Source: Pseudonocardiales bacterium
Lineage (GTDB): Bacteria; Actinomycetota; Actinomycetes; Mycobacteriales; Jatrophihabitantaceae
Length of the DNA: 38,480 bases
Assembly: GCA_030840445.1 (NCBI GenBank)
Contig: JAVEEN010000344.1
Location: 1 to 38,480 of the forward strand
Direction of reading: 5' to 3'
The notes beneath the pieces were generated by a model that saw only the letters and a list, made by a program, of their open reading frames with translations, searched no databases and was not told the DNA's origin. Below are positions 10,340-24,605 of the stretch, piece by piece; the first letter of the stretch is position 1, and every line of letters starts with the position of its first letter. The translations under genes were made by a program, and so were the position numbers.

Positions 10340-10428
10340 GGGTCCGATGACACTCGTACCTCAAGAGGCCTGCGTCCTACGCTCTGCTCTGGCCGCCTTG
10401 CCCCCACGTGACTAGCCGAGGGAGTTTT

Positions 10429-11418
10429 GTGTTCGAGCAACGGACCACCTGGAGGCGACGGGGAGCAGCAGCGTGCCTGTTCCTCAGCGCCGCAGTCGCA
10501 ACAAGCGCGTGCAGCAGCGGGAAGTCGGTGCACCCACTCCCGACAACCGCGTCACCCATCTCGATAACCACAACGGCGACATCCACCTCGATAACCACAA
10601 CGACCACACCGGCTATGTCGGCCTATTGCAGCAAGGTGGTTACCGGCGGCCCGATTCCGGAGTGCACGGTCGGTTTCCGCAGCGGCGGCGCAATCCACTT
10701 GCCGCCGGATCCGAGCACGTCGGTGCAGTTGGGCGCGTTCACCAGTGGCGCAAGTAGGTTCGTCACCCGCCACGGCAGTTTCGCGCTCAACGACTCGCTA
10801 CGGTCGGCATTGAAGTCCGAGGCCGACCAGCACCCGGCCAACCCGCCATACGCCAACCTTGTCTACTCGGCAACGATCACCGGCGGCAAGGTCGCCGCCG
10901 TCCGGCGGGTGCTCAAGGTCGCTACCCGCGTGATCATCAACGCAGCGTTCGGCGGCAGAACGCTGCAAGGCAAGATCTCGACCACTACCGGCTCAGGGGA
11001 CTATGGCTCGACGCCGACCCTACCAATCCAGATTAAGCTGGCCCAGGCAGCCAACATAGTTAAGGACAGCGTGGGTGGCGCTGAACTGGTCGGCACGATC
11101 ACCAACGCGAAGAAGCCGGTGAGGCTGCCGGGCGGCTCGACCCTGCCCGCCCTGTCCAGTAGCTCGCACAACCCGCTCACGGGGCCCTATACCGAGCATA
11201 TTGCTCTGTTGCGGTTCCCATCGATGCACGCGGCCTTCGCCGACCAGATGGTCCTCAGCTGGGCTCCAGGCGGCCCGACCGGCATGGGCCCGGAGTTCTT
11301 TCCGAGCGTCGGCACCGTGCTTGGACTAGATCCGCTCGGCAAGACCTGGAACATCGTGCTGCACGGCGTCCCCTGGCGCGGGCCGTCGCTGTCGCTGTCA
11401 GCCAGCACACCGAGCTAG
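10429..11418 (+). CDS. Putative lipoprotein of unknown function
   Basis: I do not recognise the family. The 329-residue product starts with an Arg-rich end and hydrophobic stretch, then TSAC (Cys28), an imperfect lipobox with Thr at -3. A Thr/Ser/Ile-rich linker (about residues 40-65) tethers a globular part of about 260 residues. That part holds two cysteines (YCSK and PECTVGF) which could form a disulfide. I use the GTG at 10429 because AGGGAG lies 4 nt upstream; an in-frame GTG at 10408 would add seven residues. It precedes the telA operon by 78 nt on the same strand, so co-transcription is possible but unproven. Gene and export are likely; function unknown. Confidence 0.75.
   Translation: MFEQRTTWRRRGAAACLFLSAAVATSACSSGKSVHPLPTTASPISITTTATSTSITTTTTPAMSAYCSKVVTGGPIPECTVGFRSGGAIHLPPDPSTSVQLGAFTSGASRFVTRHGSFALNDSLRSALKSEADQHPANPPYANLVYSATITGGKVAAVRRVLKVATRVIINAAFGGRTLQGKISTTTGSGDYGSTPTLPIQIKLAQAANIVKDSVGGAELVGTITNAKKPVRLPGGSTLPALSSSSHNPLTGPYTEHIALLRFPSMHAAFADQMVLSWAPGGPTGMGPEFFPSVGTVLGLDPLGKTWNIVLHGVPWRGPSLSLSASTPS
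10560..10602 (+). repeat. Direct repeat in the lipoprotein linker
   Basis: CTCGATAACCACAACG occurs at 10560-10575 and again at 10587-10602, with a 27-bp period. It encodes part of the Ser/Ile/Thr-rich tether, which probably grew by slippage or duplication. Confidence 0.7.
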
Positions 11419-11496: not shown

Positions 11497-12714
11497 ATGA
11501 CCGATGTCGCGGCCGCTGCGCTCACCCCGCCCAGTTCCCTGACCTTGCAGGCCCCCGAGCCGGTCCCGGAGGTCGCTCCCGGAAAGGCCTGCCCGATGGT
11601 GCCGATCCCGACCGCCGCCTTGCCGAGCCTGGACGAGAAGGTCGCCGAGTACGTCGACAACATCATCACCCTGGACGTGCACTCCCCCGCGTTCACCAAG
11701 AAGGTGGATGACGTCCGGGCCTTGGGCAACGACGAGATCCGCGCGTCGTCGGAGACCTCGAACAAGCTGTTGCAGTCACCGGTGCGGGCCGTGCAGAAGA
11801 CCTCGGAAACCGGCACGGTGGCCAGCACGCTGCTCGATCTGCGCCGCACCATCGAGGATCTGGACCCCAAACAGGCCACCGGGGTCAAGAAGCTGCTCGG
11901 CATGATTCCGTTCGGTGACAAGCTGCGCGACTACTTCCACAAGTACGAGAATGCCGAGTCCCACCTCAATGCCATCCTCAGGGCGCTGCTCGACGGCCAG
12001 GACGAACTCCGCAAGGACAACGCCGCACTCGAGCAGGAGAAGGTGCACCTATGGGAAACCATGCAGCGCCTCGCGCAGTACTCCTACGTGGCCGAGCACC
12101 TCGACGCCGCAGTCGCCGGCAAGCTGACCCAGATCGAAGCAACGGACCCCGACAAGGCAAAGGTGCTTCGGGACGAAGTGCTGTTCTCCGTCCGGCAGAA
12201 GCACCAGGATCTCCTCACCCAACTGGCCGTGTCCATCCAGGGCTACCTCGCCATCGACTTGGTGCGTAAGAACAATCTCGAACTGATCAAGGGCATCGAC
12301 CGCGCCACCACCACGACCATCGCGGCGCTGCGGACCGCAGTCATCGTCGCTCAGGCTCTGGCCAACCAGAAACTCGTGCTCACGCAGATCAGTGCGCTCA
12401 ATACGACCACGTCCAATCTGATCGAATCCACGTCGCAAATGCTGGCGACCCAGGGTGTCGCCATCCAAAGACAGGCGGCCGACGCCTCGGTCAGTGTGGA
12501 ATCCCTGCAACGGGCCTTTGCCAACGTCTACCAATCCATGGACGCGATCGACACCTTCAAGGTGGCAGCGCTGGACTCCGTGCAGAAGACCATCGTCAGC
12601 CTGCAAACGAAGATCACCAAATCACAGGCCTACCTCAGCCAAGTCCGGGCCCCCGACGCCGGCACCGACGACGGACCGGGCGCGCTGACCCTCGATTCCG
12701 GGCCACCGGCCTGA
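11497..12714 (+). CDS. telA: TelA/KlaA-family toxic anion resistance protein
   Basis: Long alpha-helical cytoplasmic protein of 405 residues in the TelA (YaaN/KlaA) family, linked to tellurite and other envelope or anion stresses; its biochemical activity is not settled. The family core is unmistakable: SIQGYLAIDLVRKNNLELIK, the run of threonines in IDRATTTTIAALRTAVIVAQ, ALANQKLVLTQISALNTTTSNLIE and a helical YQSMDAIDTFKVAALDS. The first 60 residues are Pro-rich and probably flexible. The ATG at 11497 has AGGAG 5 nt upstream. It opens the same-strand run leading to pknG; the next gene starts 61-76 nt downstream. In this context it may be an effector or membrane-associated scaffold of the signalling system. 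Confidence 0.93.
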   Translation: MTDVAAAALTPPSSLTLQAPEPVPEVAPGKACPMVPIPTAALPSLDEKVAEYVDNIITLDVHSPAFTKKVDDVRALGNDEIRASSETSNKLLQSPVRAVQKTSETGTVASTLLDLRRTIEDLDPKQATGVKKLLGMIPFGDKLRDYFHKYENAESHLNAILRALLDGQDELRKDNAALEQEKVHLWETMQRLAQYSYVAEHLDAAVAGKLTQIEATDPDKAKVLRDEVLFSVRQKHQDLLTQLAVSIQGYLAIDLVRKNNLELIKGIDRATTTTIAALRTAVIVAQALANQKLVLTQISALNTTTSNLIESTSQMLATQGVAIQRQAADASVSVESLQRAFANVYQSMDAIDTFKVAALDSVQKTIVSLQTKITKSQAYLSQVRAPDAGTDDGPGALTLDSGPPA

Positions 12715-12775
12715 GTACCGCAATCGAGCCGCGCGCCGCCACCGGTCGGGACGCCGTCCGGCCAGAAATTGCGCC

Positions 12776-13291
12776 ATGCGAAGTCGTCCCATGGGATTGC
12801 TGAAGTCGCTCTTGGCAGCGTTTGGCCGCACGTCGAGCGACACCGCTGTAGTACCGCGTTCGGACGACGACGAAATCCTGGCTTCCCTGGATCGACTGCA
12901 GATCGTGGTAGCCGGCAGGGTGCCGGACCTGGTTGCGGCTCGCATCGACCGGATCGCCGACGTGGTTCGAGAAACCGTGCCACGCCTGGGCAATCTCGGC
13001 CCCGGCAGTCTCACCGCGCACGATGTGCTGCGGACCGCGACCAGCTATCTGCCGGAGGCGGTCGCGGCCTACCTCCGACTGCCGCGCAGCTTCGCCGACA
13101 CCCGCCCGGTGAGTAAGGGCAAGACGTCGCTGAGTGTGCTCTGCGACCAACTCGACCTGTTCGCCTCCAAGATGGACGATGTGTTCGACGCGGTCTGCCG
13201 CGCAGACGCCGACGCGCTGATCGCTCACGGTCGGTTCCTGGCCGAGAAGTTCGGCTCCGGGGCCCTTGCCATCAATCCGGAACTGCGATGA
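12776..13291 (+). CDS. Helical protein, possible XpaC-like TelA partner
   Basis: The product is 171 residues from the ATG at 12776, or 166 from the ATG at 12791; neither start has a clear Shine-Dalgarno. It is mostly helical. The central TATSYLPEAVAAYLRLPRSF, followed by a helix LSVLCDQLDLFASKMDDVFD, recalls the C-terminal part of XpaC proteins, encoded next to TelA homologues (xpaC-yaaN) in Bacillus. That resemblance, plus the position directly after telA, is why I suggest a TelA partner. The similarity is weak and by eye. Its stop overlaps the next start (ATGA), so at least the following genes are translationally coupled to it. Confidence 0.78.
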   Translation: MRSRPMGLLKSLLAAFGRTSSDTAVVPRSDDDEILASLDRLQIVVAGRVPDLVAARIDRIADVVRETVPRLGNLGPGSLTAHDVLRTATSYLPEAVAAYLRLPRSFADTRPVSKGKTSLSVLCDQLDLFASKMDDVFDAVCRADADALIAHGRFLAEKFGSGALAINPELR

Positions 13292-13482
13292 CCGCCTCCG
13301 AACCGTTGGTGGCGGGCTATGTCGCCCAGACCGCCATCAAGACCGCCGAGCTGATCGCCCAGGCCATCGGTGGCGTGCTGTTTTCGACGGCCGTTCGGCA
13401 GGCGTGGCGACTGCGCGAACTTCCGGACCCCTCGGTCGCACCGCTACCCGAGCTGATCCCAGCGGACCTGGCCACGTCATGA
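13288..13482 (+). CDS. Small protein of unknown function, 64 residues
   Basis: Unrecognised. The evidence that it is real is architectural: its ATG overlaps the preceding stop as ATGA, and its own stop overlaps the glnX start as ATGA, so it fits exactly into a chain of coupled genes. It begins with a helix-forming stretch (VAQTAIKTAELIAQAIGGVL, mildly hydrophobic) and ends in a Pro-rich tail (LPDPSVAPLPELIPADLATS). It has no cysteine and no convincing membrane span. It could be an amphipathic membrane-binding peptide or a small adaptor; neither is shown. Confidence 0.72.
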   Translation: MTASEPLVAGYVAQTAIKTAELIAQAIGGVLFSTAVRQAWRLRELPDPSVAPLPELIPADLATS

Positions 13483-14801
13483 CCGCTCCCACCTTGACCG
13501 ACCAGCATGAGCAGGCATTGGCCGCCCGCCGGCCACCGACCACTAGCGACGCCCTGACGCGGCTGCTGGGCCGCGCGTTCGAAGGAACACCAGGCCGGCT
13601 CCGGCTGCTCGGCATACTGTCCGTCCTCGCCTGCGGCCTCTTCAGTGTCTTCGCCTTCGCCGGCGCGACCACGCGCTCCGGCGCGCTGGCCAACGCGAGA
13701 GCAGACGCGAACCAGCTCGTTCGGATCCAGACGATCCACACCAATCTGGTCGCGGCGGACGCCAGCCTGACAAATGCCTTCCTGGTTGGTGGACTGGAAC
13801 CAGCCGGCGAGCGCAACGCCTACCAGCAGGGCATCGCCACCGCGTCGAAGACCTTGTCCGAGGCCTCCGGTGCCGACGCATCCGACGCCGCGGTTCTCGC
13901 CGACGTCAACGACGTCATCACCTCCTACTCCGGACTGGTGGAGTCGGCCCGCTCGTACAACCGCCAGGGCCTCCCGGTGGGTGCCGCCTATCTACGTCAG
14001 GCCATCACGCTGCTGCACGACAAGGCCTTGCCGCTCCTGCAATCTCTCGGAGTCAGCGAGCAAAACCGCGTCGACCACGCCTATGCAGCCAGTGCTCATG
14101 CGGTCTACTGGCCGCTCGCCGGCCTCGTCACCGCCCTCGCGGTGCTGCTGTACAGCCTGATCTGGGTAGCGCGGCGGACGAATCGGGTCATCAATGTCGG
14201 CCTGGCGGGAGCGGCGGTCACCGTCCTCGTGGTCGGCGCGTTGCTGACCGGCCTGATGGCATGGAGCCAATCGAAGGCGAGCCGGACAAGGGACGGTTCG
14301 TACTTCGCGACCCTCGAACTGGCCAGCGCCCGGATCGTCGCCTTCGACGCCAAGAGTGCCGAGAGCCTTACCCTGATCAATCGCGGTTCTGGGCAGTCCG
14401 ACGAGGCGGACTTCGCCACCCTGGCCGCGAATGCCACGCTCGTCCTGCAGGACGCGACTGACCGCGGTGGCGCTGCGGAGGCCGCGGCGTCGCACGCGTT
14501 CACCGCCTACACGTCGGTGCACAAGAGGATTCGGGCCTTTGACGATGGGGGGAAATGGGACCAGGCCGTCGCGCTCGCGACCGCTCCGATCGGAAACCTG
14601 GACACCGCCAACAGCACATTCGCCGCGTTCGACCGGACGTCTGCCGAGGCCCTCAATGCCCGAGCGGCGCGGGCGAATTCTGAGTTCAGCGCGGCCCGTT
14701 CCCCGCTGACCTGGTTCGGCTGGATCGCCCTGCTGCTGGGCCTGGCCGCGGCGGTCGCAGCCTGGCGAGGTATAGCCGACCGATTGCGAGAATACCGATG
14801 A
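13479..14801 (+). CDS. glnX: GlnX-like four-helix membrane signalling protein
   Basis: Integral membrane protein of 440 residues, matching mycobacterial GlnX in length and plan. Four hydrophobic segments are visible at about residues 41-62, 209-230, 236-258 and 409-431. They leave two large helical extracytoplasmic domains (about 63-208 and 259-408), a short cytoplasmic N-terminus and a short Arg-rich C-terminus. In mycobacteria and corynebacteria GlnX passes the signal from the lipoprotein GlnH to the kinase PknG. Here glnH follows at once (ATGA overlap), with pknG one gene further. The ATG at 13479 overlaps the preceding 64-residue gene by 4 nt. Identification rests on topology, length and neighbours more than on residue motifs. 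Confidence 0.85.
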   Translation: MTAPTLTDQHEQALAARRPPTTSDALTRLLGRAFEGTPGRLRLLGILSVLACGLFSVFAFAGATTRSGALANARADANQLVRIQTIHTNLVAADASLTNAFLVGGLEPAGERNAYQQGIATASKTLSEASGADASDAAVLADVNDVITSYSGLVESARSYNRQGLPVGAAYLRQAITLLHDKALPLLQSLGVSEQNRVDHAYAASAHAVYWPLAGLVTALAVLLYSLIWVARRTNRVINVGLAGAAVTVLVVGALLTGLMAWSQSKASRTRDGSYFATLELASARIVAFDAKSAESLTLINRGSGQSDEADFATLAANATLVLQDATDRGGAAEAAASHAFTAYTSVHKRIRAFDDGGKWDQAVALATAPIGNLDTANSTFAAFDRTSAEALNARAARANSEFSAARSPLTWFGWIALLLGLAAAVAAWRGIADRLREYR

Positions 14802-15778
14802 CCGTCCGAGGCCGGTTGCAGGTCGGCCTGGCTGCATTGGCCACTGCTCTGGCGCTTGTGCTGACCGGGTGTGCCGGCGGTACCACCCGCGCTCTGCCGT
14901 CCGCGTCGGCCGCCTCGCCGAGCAGTGTCGCTGCGGCCCCGTCGGCGTCGCTGTTACCCGGGTGTAGCGACGGCAACGGCACCCGGGTGGCCTCCTATCG
15001 GCCAGATGGCCCGCTGCCCTCACCGCAACGGTTGCCGCCAACCTCGACGATGGCCGACATCAAGCACCGTGGACGGCTGATTGTCGGTGTCTCGGCGGAC
15101 AACCTGCTCTTCGGCTTCCGGGACCCCATCACCGGAACACTCGAGGGTTTCGACATCGACATGGTCGACCAGGTGGCGAAGGCCATCTTCGGTACCACCA
15201 GTGACCGCGTCGAGTACCGGGTGGTCACCTCCGCGCAGCGGATCCCGGCGCTGGCCAGTGGGCAGGTGGATCTGGTCGCCGACATCATGACCATCAACTG
15301 CTCACGGTGGACCCAGATCGCCTTCTCGGCGGAGTACTTCCACGCCGGCCAGCAGATTCTGGTTCGCAAGGATTCTGCCGCGGCCGGCATCGCCGACCTG
15401 GACGGCAAGAAGGTCTGTTCGTCCACCGGCTCGACCGGTAGCGAGAACCTGAAGAAGTACCCCGAGGTGGTTCCCGTGCTCGTCAAGGCCATCAGCGACT
15501 GCATGGTTCTGTTCCAGCAAGGCAGCGTCGCTGGGATCATCTCCGACAACACCGTGGTGGCCGGTTTCGAGGCTCAGGATCCGTACGCCAAGGTCGTCGG
15601 CCCGCAGATCACCGACGAGCCGTACGGGCTGGCAATCCCCAAGCAGAACCGGGACTTCGTCAAGTTCGTCAACGCGCTGCTCGCCCAATTGCGGGCCGAC
15701 GGCACCTGGAAGCAGATCTATTCGCGCTGGATCACCGGGCCGGTGCCGAACCCGCCGACACCGGTCTACGGCCGATGA
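14798..15778 (+). CDS. glnH: GlnH-like amino-acid-binding lipoprotein
   Basis: Family 3 solute-binding lipoprotein of 326 residues. The lipobox is LTGC (Cys25), followed by a Ser/Ala/Pro linker and the binding domain from about residue 85 (GRLIVGVSADNLLFGFRDP, then LEGFDIDMVDQVAKAIFG), with the hinge SAQRIPALASGQVDLVADIM. In M. tuberculosis the homologue binds acidic amino acids and glutamine and acts as a sensor rather than a transporter part. No ABC permease or ATPase gene for it lies nearby, which supports the sensor role. The start overlaps glnX as ATGA and the stop overlaps the next start. Ligand preference cannot be read safely. Confidence 0.93.
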   Translation: MTVRGRLQVGLAALATALALVLTGCAGGTTRALPSASAASPSSVAAAPSASLLPGCSDGNGTRVASYRPDGPLPSPQRLPPTSTMADIKHRGRLIVGVSADNLLFGFRDPITGTLEGFDIDMVDQVAKAIFGTTSDRVEYRVVTSAQRIPALASGQVDLVADIMTINCSRWTQIAFSAEYFHAGQQILVRKDSAAAGIADLDGKKVCSSTGSTGSENLKKYPEVVPVLVKAISDCMVLFQQGSVAGIISDNTVVAGFEAQDPYAKVVGPQITDEPYGLAIPKQNRDFVKFVNALLAQLRADGTWKQIYSRWITGPVPNPPTPVYGR

Positions 15779-16977
15779 TGGCGCTCATGTTGGGTCTTCC
15801 GCCAACCGCACCGGGATCGCTGACCGCGCCGCCGAATCCCCGGGAGGCCTTGTCGTATCTTCATGAACTGCGTCGGTGGCGCGATGATCTGCGAACCGTG
15901 CTGAACTCCGCCGACCGACGGGCCCAGGTGGCGAGCGCGACCGACGAGTTCACCGGGGACCTGACGCTGGCCATGTCGCTCGCCGAATCTATCGCCCGGC
16001 GTACCGAGGAGCTCATCCTGGTGTGGGATGGCGGCCGGGTCGGGCCGCAACAGCTCGCTAGCCTGGCTCAGCTGATCTGGGGCAGACTGCCAGATTCTCT
16101 AGGTAATCCCTCGGCATTCTCGCTCAGCGAAGCCACTACTCTGGCCGCGGCACTCGAGGCTCGGCTGGAGTCCCGGCTGGCGGCGGACTCGATCGCGGGC
16201 TCCGGGGCCGCTGATCTGATCGAACCGTTGCGCGACACACTGCAACGATGCCGGACGCTGGCCGAGACGCTGGGCCGGCGGGCCGGTGAGGCCGACGATC
16301 TCACCCAGCAGCTCGAGGCCGCCCTGGCCGGCACCGGCGGACCGGCGCAGGTGGGTGCGGTCGTGACCCGAATCTCCGAGACGGCCGACCTTCTGGAACG
16401 TGACCTGATCAAGCAGACGTCGCTGCGCACCTCGGTGCAAAGCCAGGCGGCCGAGCTTACCGCCCGGCTCAGCGCCTTGACCGAACTCGAAGTCCAGGTC
16501 CGTGAGCTCGCTGGTCGCTGCCGCGACAAGATAGCCGACCCGCCACGCCTGGCCGTTCCCGATCCGACTGTCCTCGGCTGCGTACCGCCGATACCGGACG
16601 GCCCGGCCGAACCGGGGGCCTGGACGAAGTCCAGAGCTGAACTCGACACCTACCGAAGGCGGGTCGACCAGGTCGAGGCCGCGCTCACCGAGGCTCAGCG
16701 GCGGTTCGCCGCGCCGCTCACCGAACGGGCGGAGCTGCGCGGACTGGCCGACGCCTACCGCACCAAGGCCGGAGCACAGGGCCTGGCCGAGGACAGCGCG
16801 CTCGGGGCCAGCTACGAACGCTTGCGGGCGGTGCTGTGGCACGCTCCGGGTGACCTCTCCGTTGCCGGTCCGCTCGTCCGGAGCTACGTTGCGCTGGTGC
16901 AAGAGGCCCTGCTGCTCAAAGGGAAACAGGCCGGATCGGCTGCGCCCGAGCTCGGGATGAAAGGGGAAGTCCTTTGA
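15775..16977 (+). CDS. Coiled-coil protein between GlnH and PknG, unknown function
   Basis: Unrecognised 400-residue protein, acidic and almost wholly helical. Long heptad-like stretches run over about residues 30-90, 140-250 and 285-340 (for example SETADLLERDLIKQTSLRTS and RRVDQVEAALTEAQRRFAAP). They are interrupted by a Pro-rich hinge near 258-285 (DPPRLAVPDPTVLGCVPPIP). There is no signal peptide, membrane span or cysteine cluster, so it should be cytosolic. The ATG overlaps the glnH stop and its own stop overlaps the TTG of pknG (TTGA), so it is made in step with both. Its place between sensor and kinase suggests an adaptor or filament that couples GlnX to PknG. It is absent, as far as I recall, from the mycobacterial glnX-glnH-pknG locus. 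Confidence 0.88.
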   Translation: MMALMLGLPPTAPGSLTAPPNPREALSYLHELRRWRDDLRTVLNSADRRAQVASATDEFTGDLTLAMSLAESIARRTEELILVWDGGRVGPQQLASLAQLIWGRLPDSLGNPSAFSLSEATTLAAALEARLESRLAADSIAGSGAADLIEPLRDTLQRCRTLAETLGRRAGEADDLTQQLEAALAGTGGPAQVGAVVTRISETADLLERDLIKQTSLRTSVQSQAAELTARLSALTELEVQVRELAGRCRDKIADPPRLAVPDPTVLGCVPPIPDGPAEPGAWTKSRAELDTYRRRVDQVEAALTEAQRRFAAPLTERAELRGLADAYRTKAGAQGLAEDSALGASYERLRAVLWHAPGDLSVAGPLVRSYVALVQEALLLKGKQAGSAAPELGMKGEVL

Positions 16978-19193
16978 CCGCGGCGGTATGTACTCAACCC
17001 GCCTGCACCGGCCAGTTCGAGGACGGCTACTGCGACGTATGCGGAACCCCGGCCGAACCACGCTTCGGCAGCGGACCGGTAAGCAGCGCCCCGACGGCAG
17101 GGGTCCGATCGGCGAGTGCCCGGACCGGAGCCTCCTCGCAGCTGCTGAGTTCACCGATCGGTTCGGCGCGGGTATCCGGAAGCCGCCCGGCCAGGCGCAT
17201 CGGCTCGAGCCGGACCCGATCCCAACGACTCGGCGCTGGCATCACGTCAGTTCCCTCCGCGCCGCTGCCCGATCCGCGATCGGTGCTGATGGCCAAGGCC
17301 GAGGTGGCGGAGGACAAGCGTCTCTGCTCATCCTGCGGAGCGCCGGTAGGTCGATCTCGGGATGGCAAGCCCGGTCGTACCACCGGGTTCTGCGCCAAGT
17401 GCCGCACCTCGTTCTCCTTCGAACCCAAGCTCGAGCAGGGTGACCTGGTGGGTGGCCAGTACGAGGTGGTCGGTGCGCTGGCTTACGGTGGCCTGGGCTG
17501 GATCTACCTTGCACAGGACCGCAATGTCTCCGATCGCTGGGTGGTCCTGAAGGGATTGCTGAACACCGGCGATGCCGACGCCTACGCCGCGGCGGTGGCC
17601 GAACGGCAGTTCCTGGCCGAGGTGCAGAACCCGCTCATCGTCGGTATCTACAACTTTGCGCTGCATGACGGTGCCGGCTACATCGTGATGGAATACGTCG
17701 GGGGCAGCTCGCTGAAGCAGCTCCTCAAGAACCGCCAGCAGGCCAACGGCGGTCACCACGACCCGTTCCCCGCTGAACAGGCGATCGCCTACATCATCGA
17801 GATCCTGCCAGCGTTCGGTTACCTGCACAGCCAGGGCCTGATCTTCTGCGACTTCAAACCGGACAACGTTATCCAGTCTGGTGATTCGATCAAGCTGATC
17901 GACCTCGGCGGGGTACGGCGGGTGGCGGACCACCAGAGCGCCATTTACGGCACAGTGGGCTTCCAGGCACCGGAGGTGGCCACGCTCGGCCCCAGCGTGG
18001 CCAGCGATATCTACACCATCGGGCGAACCCTGGCGGTGCTGGCCATGGAGTTCCGCGGCTACCAGTCCACCTACGTTGCCAAGCTGCCCCCCGTGCAGGA
18101 TGTCCCGCTGTTCCAGCGCTATGACTCGCTGTACCGGGTGCTGGCCAAGGCGACCGCCGCTGACCCGAACGACCGGTTCCAGTCCGCCGATGAGCTGCGT
18201 GAGCAGTTGCTGGCGGTCCTCCGCGAGATCGTCGTCACCGATGGGCTTGGCGAACCGGCGCATTCCGCTACGCCCTCGGCGCTGTTCGGGCCGCCCGCGG
18301 CTACCGGATCGGCCTTGGAATGGAACGAACTGCCGCCGCTGCTGGTCGACCCGGCCGATCCCGCGGCGGCGTGGCTGGCCGGCGTGTCGATCGAAGATCC
18401 GCAGCGGCTGCTGGGCGCCCTGGATCGGGCTCCGCAGGAAACTGTCGAGATCATCCTGGCCCGGGCGCGGGCCGCCATCGACGCAGGTCGGTTCGACTTG
18501 GCCGAGGCCGCCATCGAGAAGCTGCTGACCGACGATCCCTGGGAATGGCGAGCGGTCTGGCTGTCAGGGTTGAGCGCGCTTGCACGGCTGGACGCCGGCG
18601 CCGCGACCACGGCGTTCAACACGGTGCTCGGCCAGGTACCGGGCGAACTTGCGCCGAAGCTAGCCCTCGCCCTGGCCTGCGAGCACGCAGGGGAACGACA
18701 ATTGGCCCAGGGCCTCTACCGGACCTGCACGATTGTCGACGCCAACTTCGTGGCTCCCGCAGCCTTCGGCCTGGCTCGAACCCGGCTTGCCGAAGGCGAT
18801 GTCCGATCAGCGCTGGCCGCGCTCGACCTGATCGGACCGACCAGTGGTTCCTACGTGACCGCGCGGCGGACCCGAGCCGAGGTGCTGGCCGGCAGTGACG
18901 CCGGGTTGGCGGCCCTGTCCGAAGCCGTCTCCACGCTTGCCCGGATCCCGATCGATCCGCTCGATCGGCAGCAACTGGTGGTCAGGGTGCTCAACCTGGC
19001 CCTGGAGCACGTGCGGAACACCGGCCGGGACGAGCCGTCGGTGCGGGTCGCCAGTGTGCCAGCGGCAGAACGGGATCTGCGGCAAGGCCTCGAGCGGGCC
19101 TACCGCGAATTGGCTGCCCTGACCTCGGACCGCGCCGAGCGGGTGCGCCTGGTCGACGCGGCGAACGACGTCCGGCCTAGGACTCTGTTATGA
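16974..19193 (+). CDS. pknG: PknG-type serine/threonine protein kinase with extra zinc ribbon
   Basis: Soluble Ser/Thr kinase of 739 residues. The order is: an N-terminal zinc ribbon (Cys6, 11, 20, 23), a Ser/Arg-rich disordered stretch, the PknG rubredoxin-like site (Cys118, 121, 140, 143), the kinase domain (about 160-425) and TPR-like helices to the end. Kinase residues are present: Lys193, Glu210, catalytic Asp293 in FCDFKPDN and Asp310 in DLG, the variant PknG also has in place of DFG. In mycobacteria and corynebacteria PknG controls 2-oxoglutarate dehydrogenase through the FHA protein GarA/OdhI. The TTG start is supported by AAGGGGA six bases upstream and the TTGA overlap. The first ribbon is not in mycobacterial PknG as I know it. 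Confidence 0.95.
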   Translation: MTAAVCTQPACTGQFEDGYCDVCGTPAEPRFGSGPVSSAPTAGVRSASARTGASSQLLSSPIGSARVSGSRPARRIGSSRTRSQRLGAGITSVPSAPLPDPRSVLMAKAEVAEDKRLCSSCGAPVGRSRDGKPGRTTGFCAKCRTSFSFEPKLEQGDLVGGQYEVVGALAYGGLGWIYLAQDRNVSDRWVVLKGLLNTGDADAYAAAVAERQFLAEVQNPLIVGIYNFALHDGAGYIVMEYVGGSSLKQLLKNRQQANGGHHDPFPAEQAIAYIIEILPAFGYLHSQGLIFCDFKPDNVIQSGDSIKLIDLGGVRRVADHQSAIYGTVGFQAPEVATLGPSVASDIYTIGRTLAVLAMEFRGYQSTYVAKLPPVQDVPLFQRYDSLYRVLAKATAADPNDRFQSADELREQLLAVLREIVVTDGLGEPAHSATPSALFGPPAATGSALEWNELPPLLVDPADPAAAWLAGVSIEDPQRLLGALDRAPQETVEIILARARAAIDAGRFDLAEAAIEKLLTDDPWEWRAVWLSGLSALARLDAGAATTAFNTVLGQVPGELAPKLALALACEHAGERQLAQGLYRTCTIVDANFVAPAAFGLARTRLAEGDVRSALAALDLIGPTSGSYVTARRTRAEVLAGSDAGLAALSEAVSTLARIPIDPLDRQQLVVRVLNLALEHVRNTGRDEPSVRVASVPAAERDLRQGLERAYRELAALTSDRAERVRLVDAANDVRPRTLL

Positions 19194-20326
19194 CTGACGG
19201 TTCTGCTACGGCGGGGGAATCTCCCGTGACCAACCGGTTGAGCTGTCCGTCCTGTGGCGAACACGCCGGCACCACTGATGCCTTCTGTGAGAGCTGCGGT
19301 TCACTGTTGAAACCTCAATCACTTCCTCCGCAAAGGGAATCAGCCGGCATCCAAACCAACCCGTCAGATCGGCCGTGCCTAGCTTGCGCTGGCAAGGTCG
19401 GTTCGGACGGCTGGTGCACGGTATGCGGGATGAAGGTGTCCAACGGGCGCGAACACGTAATCGAGCAGCCCGCATCGATGGTGGCCGGCGTGAGTGACAA
19501 GGGGATCGTGCATCCGCGCAACGAGGATGCCGCTGCTCTCGCTGCGGACCCGGACATCTGCTGGGCGGCGCTGGTGGTCTGTGACGGAGTGACCACGGCG
19601 GCCGACAGTGACGTCGCCTCGCTGGCGGCGGTCAATGCGGCCCGCGCGCTGCTGGCTGCGGCGCCGCGGCCACCGAACACCTCAGCTGAAGCCAGGATCG
19701 CCCATTGGTCCGAGCAGTTGATCGCCGCGGCCGCGGCGGCCAACCGGGCCGCGACCGAGACAGCCCACGCGATCGGCGATGTCGAGAACCCACCGTCGGC
19801 AACATTCGTGGCGGCAGTGGCCGACCGGGACGTCCTGGTGGCGGCGTGGATAGGGGACAGCCGGGCGTACTGGTTGCCTGAAGCGGGGCCGGCCGAGCAG
19901 CTGTCCGTCGACGACTCCTGGGCCACCGCCCAGATCAACATTGGCGTGTCACGAGACGTGGCCGAGGCCAGTCCGCAGGCCCACGCCATCACCCGCTGGA
20001 TCGGTCCGGACGGACCCAGCGGCGACGCCTCGACCTCGGCCACGACGGCCCGCTCGCCGGGCTGGCTGATGGTGTGCAGCGACGGATTGTGGAACTACTG
20101 CTCGGAAGCGTCCGAGCTGGCGAAGCTCGTTTACTCGCTGGCTGATTCCTCGGCTGCGCACGAGCCGCTGCCACTGGCCGAGTCGCTGGTGACCTGGGCC
20201 AACGAGCAGGGTGGGCACGACAACATCACCGTCGCCCTTGCGTTTGTCGACCCAACCGCCGAAATAGCCCCAACTGCCGAAATAGACCCAACCGCCAGCG
20301 AAGTCGAGATGAAGGAGTCATTCTGA
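19190..20326 (+). CDS. PP2C-type Ser/Thr phosphatase with two zinc ribbons
   Basis: Metal-dependent protein phosphatase of 378 residues, the expected eraser of PknG phosphorylation. Two N-terminal Cys4 ribbons (Cys19, 22, 33, 36 and Cys63, 66, 76, 79) precede the catalytic domain (about 95-355). Metal-binding motifs are intact: RNED (Asp113), CDGV (Asp132), SDGLW (Asp298) and GHDN (Asp344). The C-terminal tail holds a hexapeptide repeat, DPTAEI/APTAEI/DPTASE. There is no membrane segment, so it is cytosolic like PknG. Its ATG overlaps the pknG stop (ATGA) and its TGA shares a base with the next ATG. Dephosphorylation of PknG, the FHA protein or the VWA protein is the obvious proposal, from position. 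Confidence 0.93.
   Translation: MTDGSATAGESPVTNRLSCPSCGEHAGTTDAFCESCGSLLKPQSLPPQRESAGIQTNPSDRPCLACAGKVGSDGWCTVCGMKVSNGREHVIEQPASMVAGVSDKGIVHPRNEDAAALAADPDICWAALVVCDGVTTAADSDVASLAAVNAARALLAAAPRPPNTSAEARIAHWSEQLIAAAAAANRAATETAHAIGDVENPPSATFVAAVADRDVLVAAWIGDSRAYWLPEAGPAEQLSVDDSWATAQINIGVSRDVAEASPQAHAITRWIGPDGPSGDASTSATTARSPGWLMVCSDGLWNYCSEASELAKLVYSLADSSAAHEPLPLAESLVTWANEQGGHDNITVALAFVDPTAEIAPTAEIDPTASEVEMKESF
20249..20297 (+). repeat. 18-bp tandem repeat encoding the phosphatase tail
   Basis: Units start at 20249, 20267 and 20285. The first two are full 18-mers of the form GACCCAACCGCCGAAATA with two differences; the third is partial. They encode a Pro-Thr-Ala-Glu hexapeptide tail just before the stop, likely a slippage-prone, variable-length tether. 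Confidence 0.75.
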
Positions 20327-21612
20327 TGGCCACCTGGACCGCTGAGGTCTTCCAGAACGAATACCTGCCCGACGGTGCGACCGACGTGCACGCGATCATT
20401 ACCGTGACCTGCGCCGATTCCGGTCAAGCCGGCGATGACGGCTCCGGCGCGGCCGAGGCGATCATCATCGACTGCTCGGGATCGATGGACGGCCCGCAGA
20501 CGAAGATGATTGCCGCCCGGCAGGCCGCCGCGGCGGCGATCGGCGAACTGTCCGACGGCACCTGGTTCGGAGTGGTGGCCGGCAACGGCGGCCCGGTCAT
20601 CGCCTATCCGCCGCCGGCCCTGGAAGTCGGGGGAATGGTGCAGGCGGACACTCGGACGCGGGCCCAGGCGAACTACGCGGTGTCCCAGCTGCGGGCGCGC
20701 GGTGGCACAGCGCTCGGTATGTGGCTGATGGCGGCCAACGATCTGTTCGCCCGCACGCCGGCCTCCCAGAAGCACGCGATCCTGCTAACCGACGGCAAGA
20801 ACGAGGGCGAGACCGAACAACAACTGGCGGTCGCAATAAGCCGCGTGACCGGCCAGTTCCAGTGTGATTGCCGAGGCGTCGGCGCCGACTGGGATGTCAA
20901 CGAGCTGCGTGGCATCGCCACGGCAATGCTCGGTTCGGTCGACCTGATCGCCGATCCGGCGGAGATGGCCGCCGATTTCCGCACCATGATGCAGACCGCG
21001 ATGAGCCGGGGCGTGGCCAATGCCAAGCTCAGGGTATGGGCGCCGCTGGGCGCGGAGGTCCTGTTCGTCCGGCAGGTCGAGCCGACCATCGACGAGCTAT
21101 CGGCGCGTCGGGTCGAGGTGACCAACCTGATCTCGGAGTTCCCCACCGGGGCCTGGGGGGATGAGTCCCGCGACTACCACGTGGCGGTGCGGGTGGCCGC
21201 CAAGCCGTTGGGATCCGAACAGCTGGCAGCCCGGGTCCAACTCGAGGTCGGCGGTCAGGTCGTGGGACAAGGACTGGTCAAGGCGCTGTGGTCTGACGAC
21301 AGCGCCCTGACGACCCGGATCAATCCGGCGGTCGCGCACTACACCGGCCAGGCCGAACTGGCCGACGTCATCCAGGAGGGACTCGCGGCAAAGGCGGCGG
21401 GTGATGAGGTGACAGCAACCTTCAAGCTGGGCCGCGCCGCCCAACTGGCCGCCGAGACCGGCAACGACGAGGCCACCAACAGATTGAAGAAGGTGGTCGA
21501 CATCGAGGACGCCGAGACCGGTACGGTGCGGCTCAAGCGCGCGGTGTCCAAGCTGGACGAGATGGCCCTGGATACGAGTTCCACCAAGACCACCCGGGTC
21601 CGACCGTCATGA
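20326..21612 (+). CDS. VWA-domain protein with intact MIDAS site
   Basis: Cytosolic von Willebrand factor A protein of 428 residues. The MIDAS metal site is complete: DCSGS (Asp49, Ser51, Ser53), Thr128 in RGGTALG and Asp156 in LLTDGKNE. The N-terminal strand FQNEYLPDGATDVHAIITVT is typical of actinobacterial VWA proteins encoded near kinases and phosphatases. A beta-rich region (about 220-330) and a helical C-terminus follow. VWA proteins bind partners through the metal, and kinase/PP2C/VWA triads are known in Ter-type stress systems (TerY-P). AAGGAG lies 8 nt before the ATG, which shares one base with the preceding TGA. A scaffold or substrate of the kinase/phosphatase pair is the likely role. 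Confidence 0.92.
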   Translation: MATWTAEVFQNEYLPDGATDVHAIITVTCADSGQAGDDGSGAAEAIIIDCSGSMDGPQTKMIAARQAAAAAIGELSDGTWFGVVAGNGGPVIAYPPPALEVGGMVQADTRTRAQANYAVSQLRARGGTALGMWLMAANDLFARTPASQKHAILLTDGKNEGETEQQLAVAISRVTGQFQCDCRGVGADWDVNELRGIATAMLGSVDLIADPAEMAADFRTMMQTAMSRGVANAKLRVWAPLGAEVLFVRQVEPTIDELSARRVEVTNLISEFPTGAWGDESRDYHVAVRVAAKPLGSEQLAARVQLEVGGQVVGQGLVKALWSDDSALTTRINPAVAHYTGQAELADVIQEGLAAKAAGDEVTATFKLGRAAQLAAETGNDEATNRLKKVVDIEDAETGTVRLKRAVSKLDEMALDTSSTKTTRVRPS

Positions 21613-22367
21613 GTTCGGTGTGCTCGCAGGGCCATTCCTCCTCGACCGATGACTTCTGCGACGTGTGCGGAGCCCCGATCGAGGCCACGGTGGTTCTCGC
21701 CGCCGCGCCCGTGGGACCGGCCGAGTCAGCCCAACCCGCCGGACCGCCCCGACCAGCCGAACCCAAGAGATGCCCGAACTGCCAGGCGGCGAACGCCGCT
21801 GACGCCCTGTTCTGTGAGCGTTGTGGGTACGAATTCAACACCGGGCAGCTGCCGCCGCCAGCGGCATACCCGGACCCGGTATCCGGCGTCCTGGTCCCAC
21901 CGGTCGTTGCCGTTCAGCCGGGCGCTCCCGCGGCACCCGAGCTGAAAGGCGTGGCATGGGTGGCAGAAGTCTGGGTGGACCCGGACTGGTTCGCCCACCA
22001 GCAGGCCGAGGGCAGTTGCCCGACCAGCGGATTGCCCGCCGTGGTCCCGCTCATCGGGTCCCGGGCCCTGATTGGACGCCGCTCGCGGAGCCATCAGCTC
22101 AATCCCGAGATCGACTGCGCGAATGACGGCGCCATCTCCCACCGGCACGCCGAGGTGTCACTGAGGGCCGGCAGGTGGTCGGTCAAGGACCTCGGCTCGA
22201 CCAATGGCACCTATGTCGGCAAGCCCGACGGACGGTATCCCGACGACGCTCTCGTTGTGCGGCAACCGCGGGAACTTGCCGACAACGAGCGCGTCTATCT
22301 CGGTGCCTGGACCCGCATCGTCATCCGCCGCGCCACCGATCGGGAGCGCGCCCGCGCCGGCGGCTGA
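21609..22367 (+). CDS. FHA-domain phosphothreonine reader with two zinc ribbons
   Basis: Cytosolic protein of 252 residues ending the operon. Ribbon 1 uses Cys5, His9, Cys17, Cys20 and ends CDVCGAP, nearly identical to the CDVCGTP of PknG's first ribbon. Ribbon 2 uses Cys55, 58, 69, 72. After a Pro/Ala linker and a short beta region, the FHA domain (about 145-245) shows GRRSRS, SHRHAEVSL and the DLGSTNGTYV loop that binds phosphothreonine. GarA/OdhI, the classical PknG target, has an N-terminal ETTS phosphorylation motif; none is present here, so this is a reader or adaptor rather than a GarA equivalent. The ATG overlaps the VWA stop (ATGA). Confidence 0.93.
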   Translation: MSSVCSQGHSSSTDDFCDVCGAPIEATVVLAAAPVGPAESAQPAGPPRPAEPKRCPNCQAANAADALFCERCGYEFNTGQLPPPAAYPDPVSGVLVPPVVAVQPGAPAAPELKGVAWVAEVWVDPDWFAHQQAEGSCPTSGLPAVVPLIGSRALIGRRSRSHQLNPEIDCANDGAISHRHAEVSLRAGRWSVKDLGSTNGTYVGKPDGRYPDDALVVRQPRELADNERVYLGAWTRIVIRRATDRERARAGG

Positions 22368-22943: not shown

Positions 22944-24605
22944 ATGACCGAAAAGCCCACAGACCCTGGCAAGTCCGACCCTGGCAAGTCCGACCCTGGC
23001 CGCACCGGCGATCCCCTCCGTGACCTGGAATTGCGCCCGCTACCGGGCAGCGAACGCGAACCAGTCCGCGGGATGGTCCCGGCAGCGACCGCGGTACCGC
23101 CCGATGAGCCCATCGAAGCGACCCTGATCCTGCGTCGCCGAGCCGAGGTGCCCGACGAAGCCCTGACGGCCCCACTGCCGCAACCGGAGTTCGCGGCCAG
23201 GTACGGTGCCGATCCAGCTGACCTCGAGTTGGTCACCGGCACCCTCGAGGGACTGGGGGCGCGGGTTCTCGAGGCCGACGCGGCCACCCGTCGGGTACGG
23301 GTGGCGGGAGACGCCCACCTGCTGAGCCGCATCTTCGGCACGACGCTGGATCGGGTAGCAAGTCCCGATCCGACCGGCGGCACCGTCGTCACCCATCGCC
23401 AGCGGACCGGCGGTCTGAGCGTGCCAGCCGCCCTCGATGGGGTGGTGACGGCAGTGCTGGGCCTCGACGACCGGCCGCAGTCACGAGCCCAGTTCCGGAT
23501 TGCGCCGGCCGCCGCGGTGACTGCCGGCTATACCCCGCTCGAGCTGGGCAGGATCTACCGGTTCCCACCCGGCACCGACGGCAGTGGCCAGACGATCGCC
23601 ATCATCGAGTTGGGCGGCGGCTTCGATCAGGCCGATCTGAACAGCTATTTCTCCGGCCTGGGCATGACCGGTCCGGTGGTGACCGCCGTGGGCGTGGACG
23701 GCGCCGCGAACCAGCCCGGTCAGGATCCCAACGGTGCCGACGGCGAGGTGCTGCTGGACATCGAGGTAGCTGGTGCCCTGGCGCCGGCCGCCTCCATCCT
23801 GGTCTACTTCGCGCCCAACACCGATGCCGGCTTCGTCGACGCGGTGGCCCAGGCCGCACATGCCGACCCGACGCCGGCCGCGATCAGCATCAGCTGGGGT
23901 CAGAACGAGGACCAATGGACGGCGCAGGCCCGTACCGCATTCGACCAGGCGCTGATCGACGCCAGCGCGCTCGGGGTTACCGTGACGGCCGCCGCCGGTG
24001 ATGACGGCAGCACAGACCGCGCCACAGACGGCCGGGCACACGTCGATTTCCCGGCATCCAGTCCGCACGCGCTGGCTTGCGGCGGCACCAAGTTGCTGGC
24101 CGACGCCAGCACCGCGACGGTGACCTCGGAGACGGTGTGGAACAACGGGACGGGTCAGGGCGCCACCGGTGGTGGGGTCAGCGACGCGTTCGATCTCCCC
24201 AGCTGGCAGCAGAATGCAGGCGTTCCCAAGCTGAGCGGCACCGCCGGCAAGGCAGGGCGAGGAGTTCCGGACGTCGCCGGGGACGCCGATCCGCGGACCG
24301 GCTACCGGGTCCGAGTCGACGGCGCCGACTTGGTCATCGGTGGTACCAGTGCCGTGTCCCCGCTGTGGGCCGCCCTGGTGGCCCGGCTGGTCCAGGCGAC
24401 CGGACGCAAGCTTGGTCTGCTGCAACCGCTGCTGTACAGAGCCACCACGGCGGGGACCGCCGCCACGGGGTTTCGCGACATCACCTCAGGTAACAACGGC
24501 GCCTACCCAGCGGGCCCGGGTTGGGACGCTTGCACCGGCCTCGGCGTCCCCGACGGGGTCCGGCTGCTCGAGGTTCTGCAGAACGGGGCGAGCGTCGTCA
24601 CATAG
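22944..24605 (+). CDS. S53-family (kumamolisin-like) serine-carboxyl peptidase
   Basis: Acid-active endopeptidase precursor of 553 residues. Residues about 50-180 are the activation prodomain. The catalytic domain has Glu268 and Asp272 (GEVLLDIEVAG), the oxyanion-hole Asp in AAGDDGS (353/354) and the nucleophile Ser469 in GGTSAVSPLW. The Ca-binding C-terminal region (FRDITSGNNGAYPAGPGWDA) is present, so it should be active. There is no hydrophobic signal peptide: it begins with an acidic, repeated Asp-Pro-Gly-Lys-Ser segment. Some thermoacidophilic sedolisins also lack a classical signal, so export is uncertain. The start ATG is at 22944. Its stop codon overlaps the probable -10 box of the helicase gene. 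Confidence 0.93.
   Translation: MTEKPTDPGKSDPGKSDPGRTGDPLRDLELRPLPGSEREPVRGMVPAATAVPPDEPIEATLILRRRAEVPDEALTAPLPQPEFAARYGADPADLELVTGTLEGLGARVLEADAATRRVRVAGDAHLLSRIFGTTLDRVASPDPTGGTVVTHRQRTGGLSVPAALDGVVTAVLGLDDRPQSRAQFRIAPAAAVTAGYTPLELGRIYRFPPGTDGSGQTIAIIELGGGFDQADLNSYFSGLGMTGPVVTAVGVDGAANQPGQDPNGADGEVLLDIEVAGALAPAASILVYFAPNTDAGFVDAVAQAAHADPTPAAISISWGQNEDQWTAQARTAFDQALIDASALGVTVTAAAGDDGSTDRATDGRAHVDFPASSPHALACGGTKLLADASTATVTSETVWNNGTGQGATGGGVSDAFDLPSWQQNAGVPKLSGTAGKAGRGVPDVAGDADPRTGYRVRVDGADLVIGGTSAVSPLWAALVARLVQATGRKLGLLQPLLYRATTAGTAATGFRDITSGNNGAYPAGPGWDACTGLGVPDGVRLLEVLQNGASVVT
22962..23000 (+). repeat. 15-bp tandem repeat at the start of the S53 peptidase gene
   Basis: GACCCTGGCAAGTCC occurs at 22962-22976 and 22977-22991, followed by a 9-bp partial copy to 23000. 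It encodes Asp-Pro-Gly-Lys-Ser repeats in the flexible N-terminus. Perfect identity suggests a recent, slippage-prone expansion. Confidence 0.85.

Follow-up and report, generated by a model that had tools for sequence, protein, structure and literature searches.

We analysed a stretch of 38,480 nucleotides (nt) from a Pseudonocardiales bacterium (assembly GCA_030840445.1, contig JAVEEN010000344.1; hereafter the window) and found ten reading frames on its forward strand, at 11497-22367, that form an operon around the gene of the protein kinase PknG. In order, they encode TelA, a small protein (sm1), a 64-codon remnant of an AAA+ ATPase, GlnX, GlnH, a coiled-coil protein (CC), PknG, a PP2C phosphatase, a VWA protein and a zinc-ribbon/FHA protein. 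This operon type is widely conserved, was undescribed as far as our literature searches went, and represents a new form of PknG signalling with a TerY-P-like architecture. We read it as a conserved ten-gene switch in which an amino-acid receptor would gate a kinase/phosphatase/VWA module coupled to an envelope-stress effector (probability roughly 0.55). The composition of the operon is certain and the mechanism is moderately likely.

A tightly joined gene unit around pknG

The source genome (4.34 Mb in 402 contigs, 92% complete; G000 in our numbering of genomes, G, and loci, L) carries the window on its contig 366. A preliminary description of this DNA had listed ten same-strand genes, nine of them joined by overlaps of 1-4 nt, and both statements were confirmed: all ten frames are present, and 8 of the 9 junctions, read from the sequence, are such overlaps. 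The sole gapped junction lies between the telA stop at 12714 and sm1, and measures 61 nt if sm1 starts where its reading frame opens (12776) or 76 nt with the start indicated by alignment with relatives (12791). The remnant (13288-13482) overlaps sm1 (12791-13291) by 4 nt at 13288-13291 and GlnX (13479-14801) by 4 nt at 13479-13482. Overlaps of 4 nt also join GlnX to GlnH (14798-15778), GlnH to CC (15775-16977), CC to PknG (16974-19193), PknG to PP2C (19190-20326) and VWA (20326-21612) to FHA (21609-22367), and PP2C and VWA share 1 nt. A promoter scan found no sigma-70-type consensus promoter, a weak argument in an actinobacterium. The ten frames are probably read as one transcript.

The unit opens with a TelA-family protein of 405 amino acids (11497-12714; PF05816, 1.2e-88). 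GlnX, a membrane signal transducer with hydrophobic segments at residues 39-65, 206-264 and 408-434, exceeds the cut-off of the GlnX subfamily model NF058618 (1.4e-92, 311 bits, cut-off 250) and stays below that of the stricter equivalog NF041460 (125 of 780 bits). GlnH is an amino-acid-binding lipoprotein with an LTGC lipobox (PF00497, SBP_bac_3, 5.7e-30), and its closest solved structure is GlnH itself (6h2t, 1.4e-66). PknG comprises an N-terminal zinc ribbon, a linker rich in serine and threonine, a rubredoxin domain, the kinase domain and a TPR domain (PF16919, PF00069, PF16918); the rubredoxin domain (17217-17432; PF16919, 1.0e-23) is the sole match in the genome, and the closest solved structure is PknG 2pzi (3.4e-131). 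Two N-terminal zinc ribbons, seen as two CxxC...CxxCG stretches, precede the phosphatase domain of PP2C (PF13672, PP2C_2, 1.7e-16). The VWA protein (PF13768, VWA_3) has an intact metal-ion-dependent adhesion site (MIDAS) motif and a VWA_3_C domain (PF18571, 2.1e-19), and the last protein combines zinc ribbons with an FHA domain (PF00498, 2.9e-10).

The motifs that we take to be the catalytic and binding marks of the kinase, phosphatase, VWA and FHA proteins are intact in the window: VVLKG, CDFKPDN and LIDLG in PknG; RNEDA, CDG, GDSR, SDG and DN in PP2C; DCSGS, GGTALG and TDG in VWA; SHRHA and NGT in FHA. Complete orthologues keep them as well, with CDFKxDN in 65/66 PknG, GDSR or GDCR in 77/77 PP2C, DxSGS in 79/80 VWA and NGT in 64/65 FHA proteins.

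Distribution of the operon and its origin in this genome

A first sample was anchored on PknG and covered 396 genomes across the phylum, 36 with a PF16919 match (27 above the cut-off), from which 31 regions were fetched. We counted 28 PknG loci, that is, 27 of these regions plus the window, after removal of three PknG-like paralogues and of a locus with almost no PknG; G283, at the cut-off and with only neighbouring hits, was also left out. The labels Mycobacteriaceae-like (the same taxonomic order as the window) and Streptomyces-like were given from gene content and likeness to named loci. PP2C, VWA and FHA genes adjoin pknG in 12 of the 28 loci: ten Streptomyces-like ones, G189 and the window. 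All ten Streptomyces-like loci, found via PknG, show GlnX-GlnH-CC-PknG-PP2C-VWA-FHA on one strand in this order, a CC orthologue again standing directly before pknG; in G189 (L059) the gene set is identical, but GlnX-GlnH lies on the opposite strand. Fourteen Mycobacteriaceae-like loci contain GlnX-GlnH-PknG only (L035 and L036 have little downstream sequence), and two further ones are second PknG copies without partners. The proposal that the additional genes keep company with pknG in relatives was thus borne out for PP2C, VWA and FHA in 12 loci and failed in the 14 Mycobacteriaceae-like ones; TelA was present in 0 of the 31 fetched regions, yet is common in one clade.

Three Streptomyces-like loci (L033, L034, L055) encode a PknG-like paralogue with an N-terminal zinc ribbon and a partial rubredoxin match just before a VWA gene, and gave no GlnX or GlnH matches. 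The seven-gene operon of L061 (G369, Streptomyces-like) retains next to nothing of PknG between its CC and PP2C genes and matches GlnX, GlnH and VWA only in part; it is possibly decaying.

The clade in question emerged from a second sample, drawn from named genomes and anchored on VWA, so that VWA is present by construction: the best 80 of at least 582 stretches (L105-L184), 65 of them with about 10 kb of upstream flank. The full set of ten genes occurs in 33 of these 65 loci and the Streptomyces form of seven genes in 21, and the remaining 11 have other combinations; 62 are collinear; the exceptions are L126, where frames run together in the open reading frame call, L154 and L177. Carriers of the ten genes include Cellulomonas, Oerskovia, Antribacter, Promicromonospora, Pseudactinotalea, Paraoerskovia, Kineosporia, Marmoricola, Nocardioides, Janibacter, Phycicoccus and others. 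Since the gene order recurs in many unrelated genera, it does not represent a chance neighbourhood. The linkage to TelA is confined to a clade of Micrococcales, Propionibacteriales, Kineosporiales and their kin, and is common there. Tight junctions recur in the TelA-bearing loci (sm1/AAA+ in 25/37, AAA+/GlnX in 30/36, GlnX/GlnH in 25/34), which upholds the earlier view of one conserved unit of sensor, kinase, phosphatase, phosphothreonine reader, VWA and TelA. Our literature searches found no published account of the whole gene set; figure 2B of PMC6069109 (STRING operon conservation) may show part of it.

Within its own family, the operon is rare. PknG_rubred, VWA_3_C and a strong GlnX match occur together in 2 of 24 family genomes, the source genome and its sister G406 (G416 has a weak GlnX match), and TelA occurs in 18. 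At the other 16 family TelA loci, the fetched stretch holds TelA together with TerD and a relative of sm1 (16/16), and often TerC/DUF475 and StiP as well, whose domains were checked at L098 alone; these TelA proteins are 48-50% identical to that of the window. A tree of 39 TelA proteins places the window and G406 with operon TelA, apart from the other 16 (100/100), and a tree of 56 PknG proteins places the window inside the TelA-bearing group rather than with PknG of its own order (100/100). As only two of the 24 genomes have the operon, and its TelA and PknG group with distant operons, it is probably foreign to the family. On the simplest reading, the whole operon was probably gained horizontally by the ancestor of G000 and G406; ancient duplication followed by loss is the alternative.

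In the family search TerD was found neither in G000 (92% complete) nor in G406. It is present in 18 of the other 22 family genomes, which puts the chance of this at about 0.05, but the two genomes are close kin and count effectively as one event. A census of TerD in the genomes of 47 of the 80 VWA-anchored loci found it missing in 36/37 genomes with a TelA-bearing operon and in 5/5 other non-Streptomycetaceae, and present in 5/5 Streptomycetaceae. Since the other non-Streptomycetaceae lack it too, lineage explains part of this exclusion. Another 18 TelA loci, from 16 genomes of the phylum-wide sample, were inspected as well: L229 has TerD, TerC and sm1 nearby, L218 a TelA-AAA+ pair lacking PknG, L219 an sm1 relative alone, L228 a weak, distant PknG match, and 14 have no query genes besides TelA (five are too divergent for a TelA match). 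With such varied neighbours, TelA has several settings.

The PknG tree does not settle which operon came first, because its rootings conflict. Rooted on L033, L034 and L055, it makes the Mycobacteriaceae-like PknG the sister group of all others, weakly supported (80/53); midpoint rooting nests them among the others. We lean towards the long operon being the older one, since the outgroup kinases also have an N-terminal zinc ribbon and a downstream VWA gene. The preliminary description called the operon "extended": the larger set is real, and it may be the mycobacterial operon that was reduced.

Operon proteins of the window and G406 are 82-95% identical (CC is represented in G406 by a contig-end scrap only). 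Directly before telA, the window encodes a lipoprotein-like protein of no family (10408-11418), which is 99% identical in G406 over 187 amino acids. Downstream of the operon, 22944-24605 gives a weak Pro-kuma_activ match (by eye, a kumamolisin-type protease), also found downstream in G406 (L102). ARAGORN called a tRNA-Ala on the minus strand at 25868-25947, inside a DUF3516 helicase gene of the opposite strand; this call is probably false.

Sensor, candidate phospho-signalling partners and the TelA pair

Solved GlnH contacts the amine and carboxyl groups of its ligand through R169, D250 and S/T164 and the side chain through W232, as described in PMC6069109. We compared GlnH rows of the window, 14 Mycobacteriaceae-like, 34 TelA- or AAA-bearing and 33 Streptomyces-like loci and L059, counting columns by hand from the alignment to solved GlnH. 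The equivalents of R147, R169, D250 and S/T164 are kept in every compared row, and the ligand of GlnH is likely an amino acid. The W232 position holds W in 14/14 Mycobacteriaceae-like, H in 30/34 TelA- or AAA-bearing and Q in 33/33 Streptomyces-like rows, F in L059 and I in the window. Since this position varies by group, the specificity of GlnH should differ. Relative to mycobacterial GlnH, in whose system specificity for Asp/Glu is expected, the window also changes T162 to I and K161 to D.

In the portions of PMC6069109, PMC8546545 and PMC9769921 that treat the mycobacterial and corynebacterial pathway, activation of PknG requires GlnH and GlnX, GarA/OdhI is a PknG substrate, the FHA substrate is recruited by the phosphorylated N-terminal tail of PknG, and the TPR domain is proposed to contact GlnX. 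PMC9769921 calls the mode of interaction between PknG and GlnX still elusive; the eraser that its relevant section names for C. glutamicum is Ppp, with no operon partner given there. The genome analysed here encodes GarA/OdhI elsewhere (L185, contig 147; NF041660, 210.5 bits, cut-off 200), preceded by a GcvH-like frame and followed by a MerR-like one, both identified by eye. A zinc ribbon stands at the N-terminus of this protein, and the expected ETTSVF stretch reads ESTSIF. With GarA/OdhI encoded elsewhere, the FHA protein of the operon need not be the only target.

N-terminal CxxC...CxxC ribbons recur in a particular subset of the proteins. In relatives with TelA or AAA+ we found them in PknG (35/38), PP2C (36/39) and FHA (34/39), and none in VWA (0/39), CC (0/38), TelA (0/19) or sm1 (0/37); start codons were chosen by script, and some absences may be wrong starts. 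All 16 Mycobacteriaceae-like PknG proteins lack the ribbon. The ribbons of PknG, PP2C, FHA and GarA/OdhI suggest a common docking module. CC, a protein of 400 amino acids and no known family, is mostly helix in an AlphaFold model made with 38 sequences (predicted local distance difference test, pLDDT, 91.0); no Pfam family matched it at E <= 1, and some relatives gave weak generic matches.

No solved structure is related to TelA itself at E <= 0.01. According to PMC12791056, a telA mutant of Listeria shows increased nisin sensitivity (cited there) and the mechanism of TelA in Listeria is not known; PMC7824862 treats TelA as a component of sub-membrane Ter structures. Its conserved partner sm1 is a small all-helical protein of no known family, with orthologues 41-57% identical and a model pLDDT of 86.7. 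At E <= 1, none of the Pfam families matches the window protein, and none is shared by over 2 of 20 sm1 orthologues. An identity with XpaC was rejected, the XpaC family not being among the matches of these 20 orthologues at the same threshold.

The preliminary description counted two small unknowns, which holds for sm1; the second (13288-13482) is a decayed SpoVK/CbbX/EccA-type AAA+ ATPase gene. We rejected an independent gene at this place: the frame aligns to two separated pieces of full-length relatives, and searches of G000 and G406 turned up no intact copy. Most of the protein is lost, including Walker A and Walker B, which are present in ten aligned relatives. Relatives have a full-length gene of about 480 codons at the same place (36 within a filter of 440-570 amino acids, 40 with any match), and AAA plus AAA_lid_6 domains were found in 10 of 11 rows scanned, the eleventh being the remnant. 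The full-length ATPases (three proteins scanned) come nearest to the SpoVK, EccA and CbbX models, below their cut-offs (TIGR02881, 1.3e-82). Neither of these genomes yielded a full-length relative at another place; leftover matches were weak (E 3.4e-4 to 3.7e-4). Since G406 shares a 64-codon counterpart that is 73% identical, the loss predates the split of the two genomes.

A candidate amino-acid-gated switch and its alternatives

In the mechanism that we propose, GlnH would bind an amino acid outside the cell and signal through GlnX to PknG, whose TPR domain would dock on GlnX as proposed in mycobacteria and corynebacteria. To PknG, the operon would add a candidate dedicated phosphatase (PP2C), a scaffold (VWA) and a reader (FHA). 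Together with CC, these proteins probably form a single complex, tethered to the membrane, that would write, read and erase phosphothreonines. Its outputs are probably GarA/OdhI, and thereby central metabolism, and the TelA-sm1 pair as a putative envelope-stress effector, which the SpoVK-type ATPase may remodel in many relatives. The complex would work like the kinase/phosphatase/VWA triad of TerY-P, PknG taking the role of the kinase and an amino-acid receptor providing the input.

Several known systems share parts of this design. The GlnX-GlnH-PknG-GarA/OdhI pathway of Mycobacterium and Corynebacterium has the same sensor, transducer and kinase domains and the same gene order, with GarA/OdhI in the genome, whereas the window adds CC, PP2C, VWA, the zinc-ribbon/FHA protein, TelA, sm1 and the AAA+ remnant, has an N-terminal zinc ribbon on PknG and differs in the side-chain pocket of GlnH. 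The TerY-P triad, as PMC11090510 outlines it, consists of a VWA protein, a PP2C and a kinase with a C-terminal zinc ribbon, with SpoVK-family ATPases in some extended operons. The window shares adjoining kinase, PP2C and VWA genes, zinc ribbons and, in relatives, the SpoVK-type AAA+; its kinase, however, is PknG, with a zinc ribbon and rubredoxin at the N-terminus and TPR at the C-terminus, and GlnX-GlnH and FHA are added. This likeness is one of description, as the window VWA has VWA_3_C and the comparison included no TerY reference. In the actinobacterial Ter operon (TerD, TerC/DUF475, TelA, StiP/PRTase; L098), TelA and a related sm1 are adjacent as in the window, but G000 and G406 have no TerD, the operon has no TerC, StiP or PRTase, and its TelA belongs to a separate clade. 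The XpaC-YaaN(TelA) operon of Bacillus and Listeria, in the account of PMC12791056, likewise pairs a TelA-family gene with a small partner, but XpaC is not among the Pfam matches of sm1 and that operon lacks the kinase set. As a known anti-phage system the operon was rejected: its PADLOC matches were confined to kinase-domain models, hit by PknG, and weak AAA+ models, hit by the ATPase of a relative.

A number of observations weigh against a single amino-acid-gated switch with TelA as output. TelA adjoins pknG in 1 of the 28 PknG loci, the window alone, and is thus not needed by PknG in general. L218 (G139) has overlapping genes for TelA and AAA+, both of the operon type, where sm1 gave no match and PknG genes are missing from the vicinity. 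In the source genome, the AAA+ gene has died while the rest of the operon persists. Four loci (L121, an unplaced metagenome-assembled genome, MAG; L123 and L155, Propionibacteriaceae MAGs; L125, Micropruina) carry the TelA-AAA+ and PknG-FHA parts with no GlnH at the locus, and L125 and L155 have no GlnX match either; the amino-acid sensor is therefore not constant, and part of the set can run without it. The ligand-pocket residues of the window GlnH are unlike those of mycobacterial GlnH. TerY-P kinases end in a zinc ribbon (or OB fold) that is missing from the window kinase, and the N-terminal ribbon is rarer outside the TelA-bearing group (PknG 19/37, PP2C 35/40, FHA 19/38). The models of CC and sm1 matched no PDB entry with E <= 0.001.

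Some of these points fit an ordinary PknG metabolic switch on GarA/OdhI, tuned by PP2C, VWA and FHA, in which TelA, sm1 and AAA+ are merely co-transcribed passengers. This explanation, which we consider possible but doubtful, gains from the GarA/OdhI gene in the genome, from Streptomyces, which keeps the system without TelA at the locus (TelA is elsewhere in 3/5 Streptomycetaceae searched), from the loss of the AAA+ gene while the rest remains, and from TelA in Ter operons and the TelA-AAA+ pair of L218, all without PknG. Against it, TelA was found in 37/37 TelA-bearing operon genomes searched, in 35 as a single match, which is the operon copy in all three genomes with coordinates compared (L105, L107, L109); the sm1/AAA+ and AAA+/GlnX overlaps likewise argue for a joint unit.

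Alternatively, the operon could be a defence or chemical-stress system of the Ter/TerY-P type that responds to phage, a toxic anion or an envelope-active peptide, with amino acids not the signal. A kinase/PP2C/VWA set with a SpoVK-type AAA+ and TelA does resemble the TerY-P/CoCoNuT gene sets shown in PMC11090510, TelA-sm1 is shared with TerD/TerC/StiP operons, the four GlnH-less loci would fit, and TerD was found in neither family genome that has the operon and is missing from nearly all TelA-bearing operon genomes. But that absence is confounded by lineage, the PADLOC matches are generic, the window GlnH keeps its contacts to the amino-acid backbone, and gene order is stable over many genera, unlike that of a mobile defence cassette, so that we regard this explanation as improbable. 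A chance neighbourhood created by an assembly or binning error, conceivable in a genome of 402 contigs, is refuted by the same genes in the same order in many unrelated isolates and in the sister genome G406, where they are split over two contigs. We thus favour the amino-acid-gated switch coupled to an envelope-stress effector.

A broader scenario, which we put forward tentatively and consider rather unlikely as a whole, is that a multi-protein phospho-complex of zinc-ribbon kinase, phosphatase, VWA, FHA and coiled-coil proteins was the ancestral setting of PknG and the three-gene operon of mycobacteria and corynebacteria a stripped-down form. TelA-sm1 would then be a plug-in effector exchanged between TerD/TerC and PknG front ends, and PknG would control envelope or chemical stress as well as glutamate metabolism.

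The operon names candidate partners of PknG (a phosphatase, VWA, FHA and coiled-coil proteins and the TelA pair) that stay together over many genera, several of them culturable. TelA gains a testable upstream kinase, and PknG signalling becomes linked with Ter-type stress systems. Our findings suggest that the well-studied three-gene mycobacterial version is perhaps only part of a larger device.

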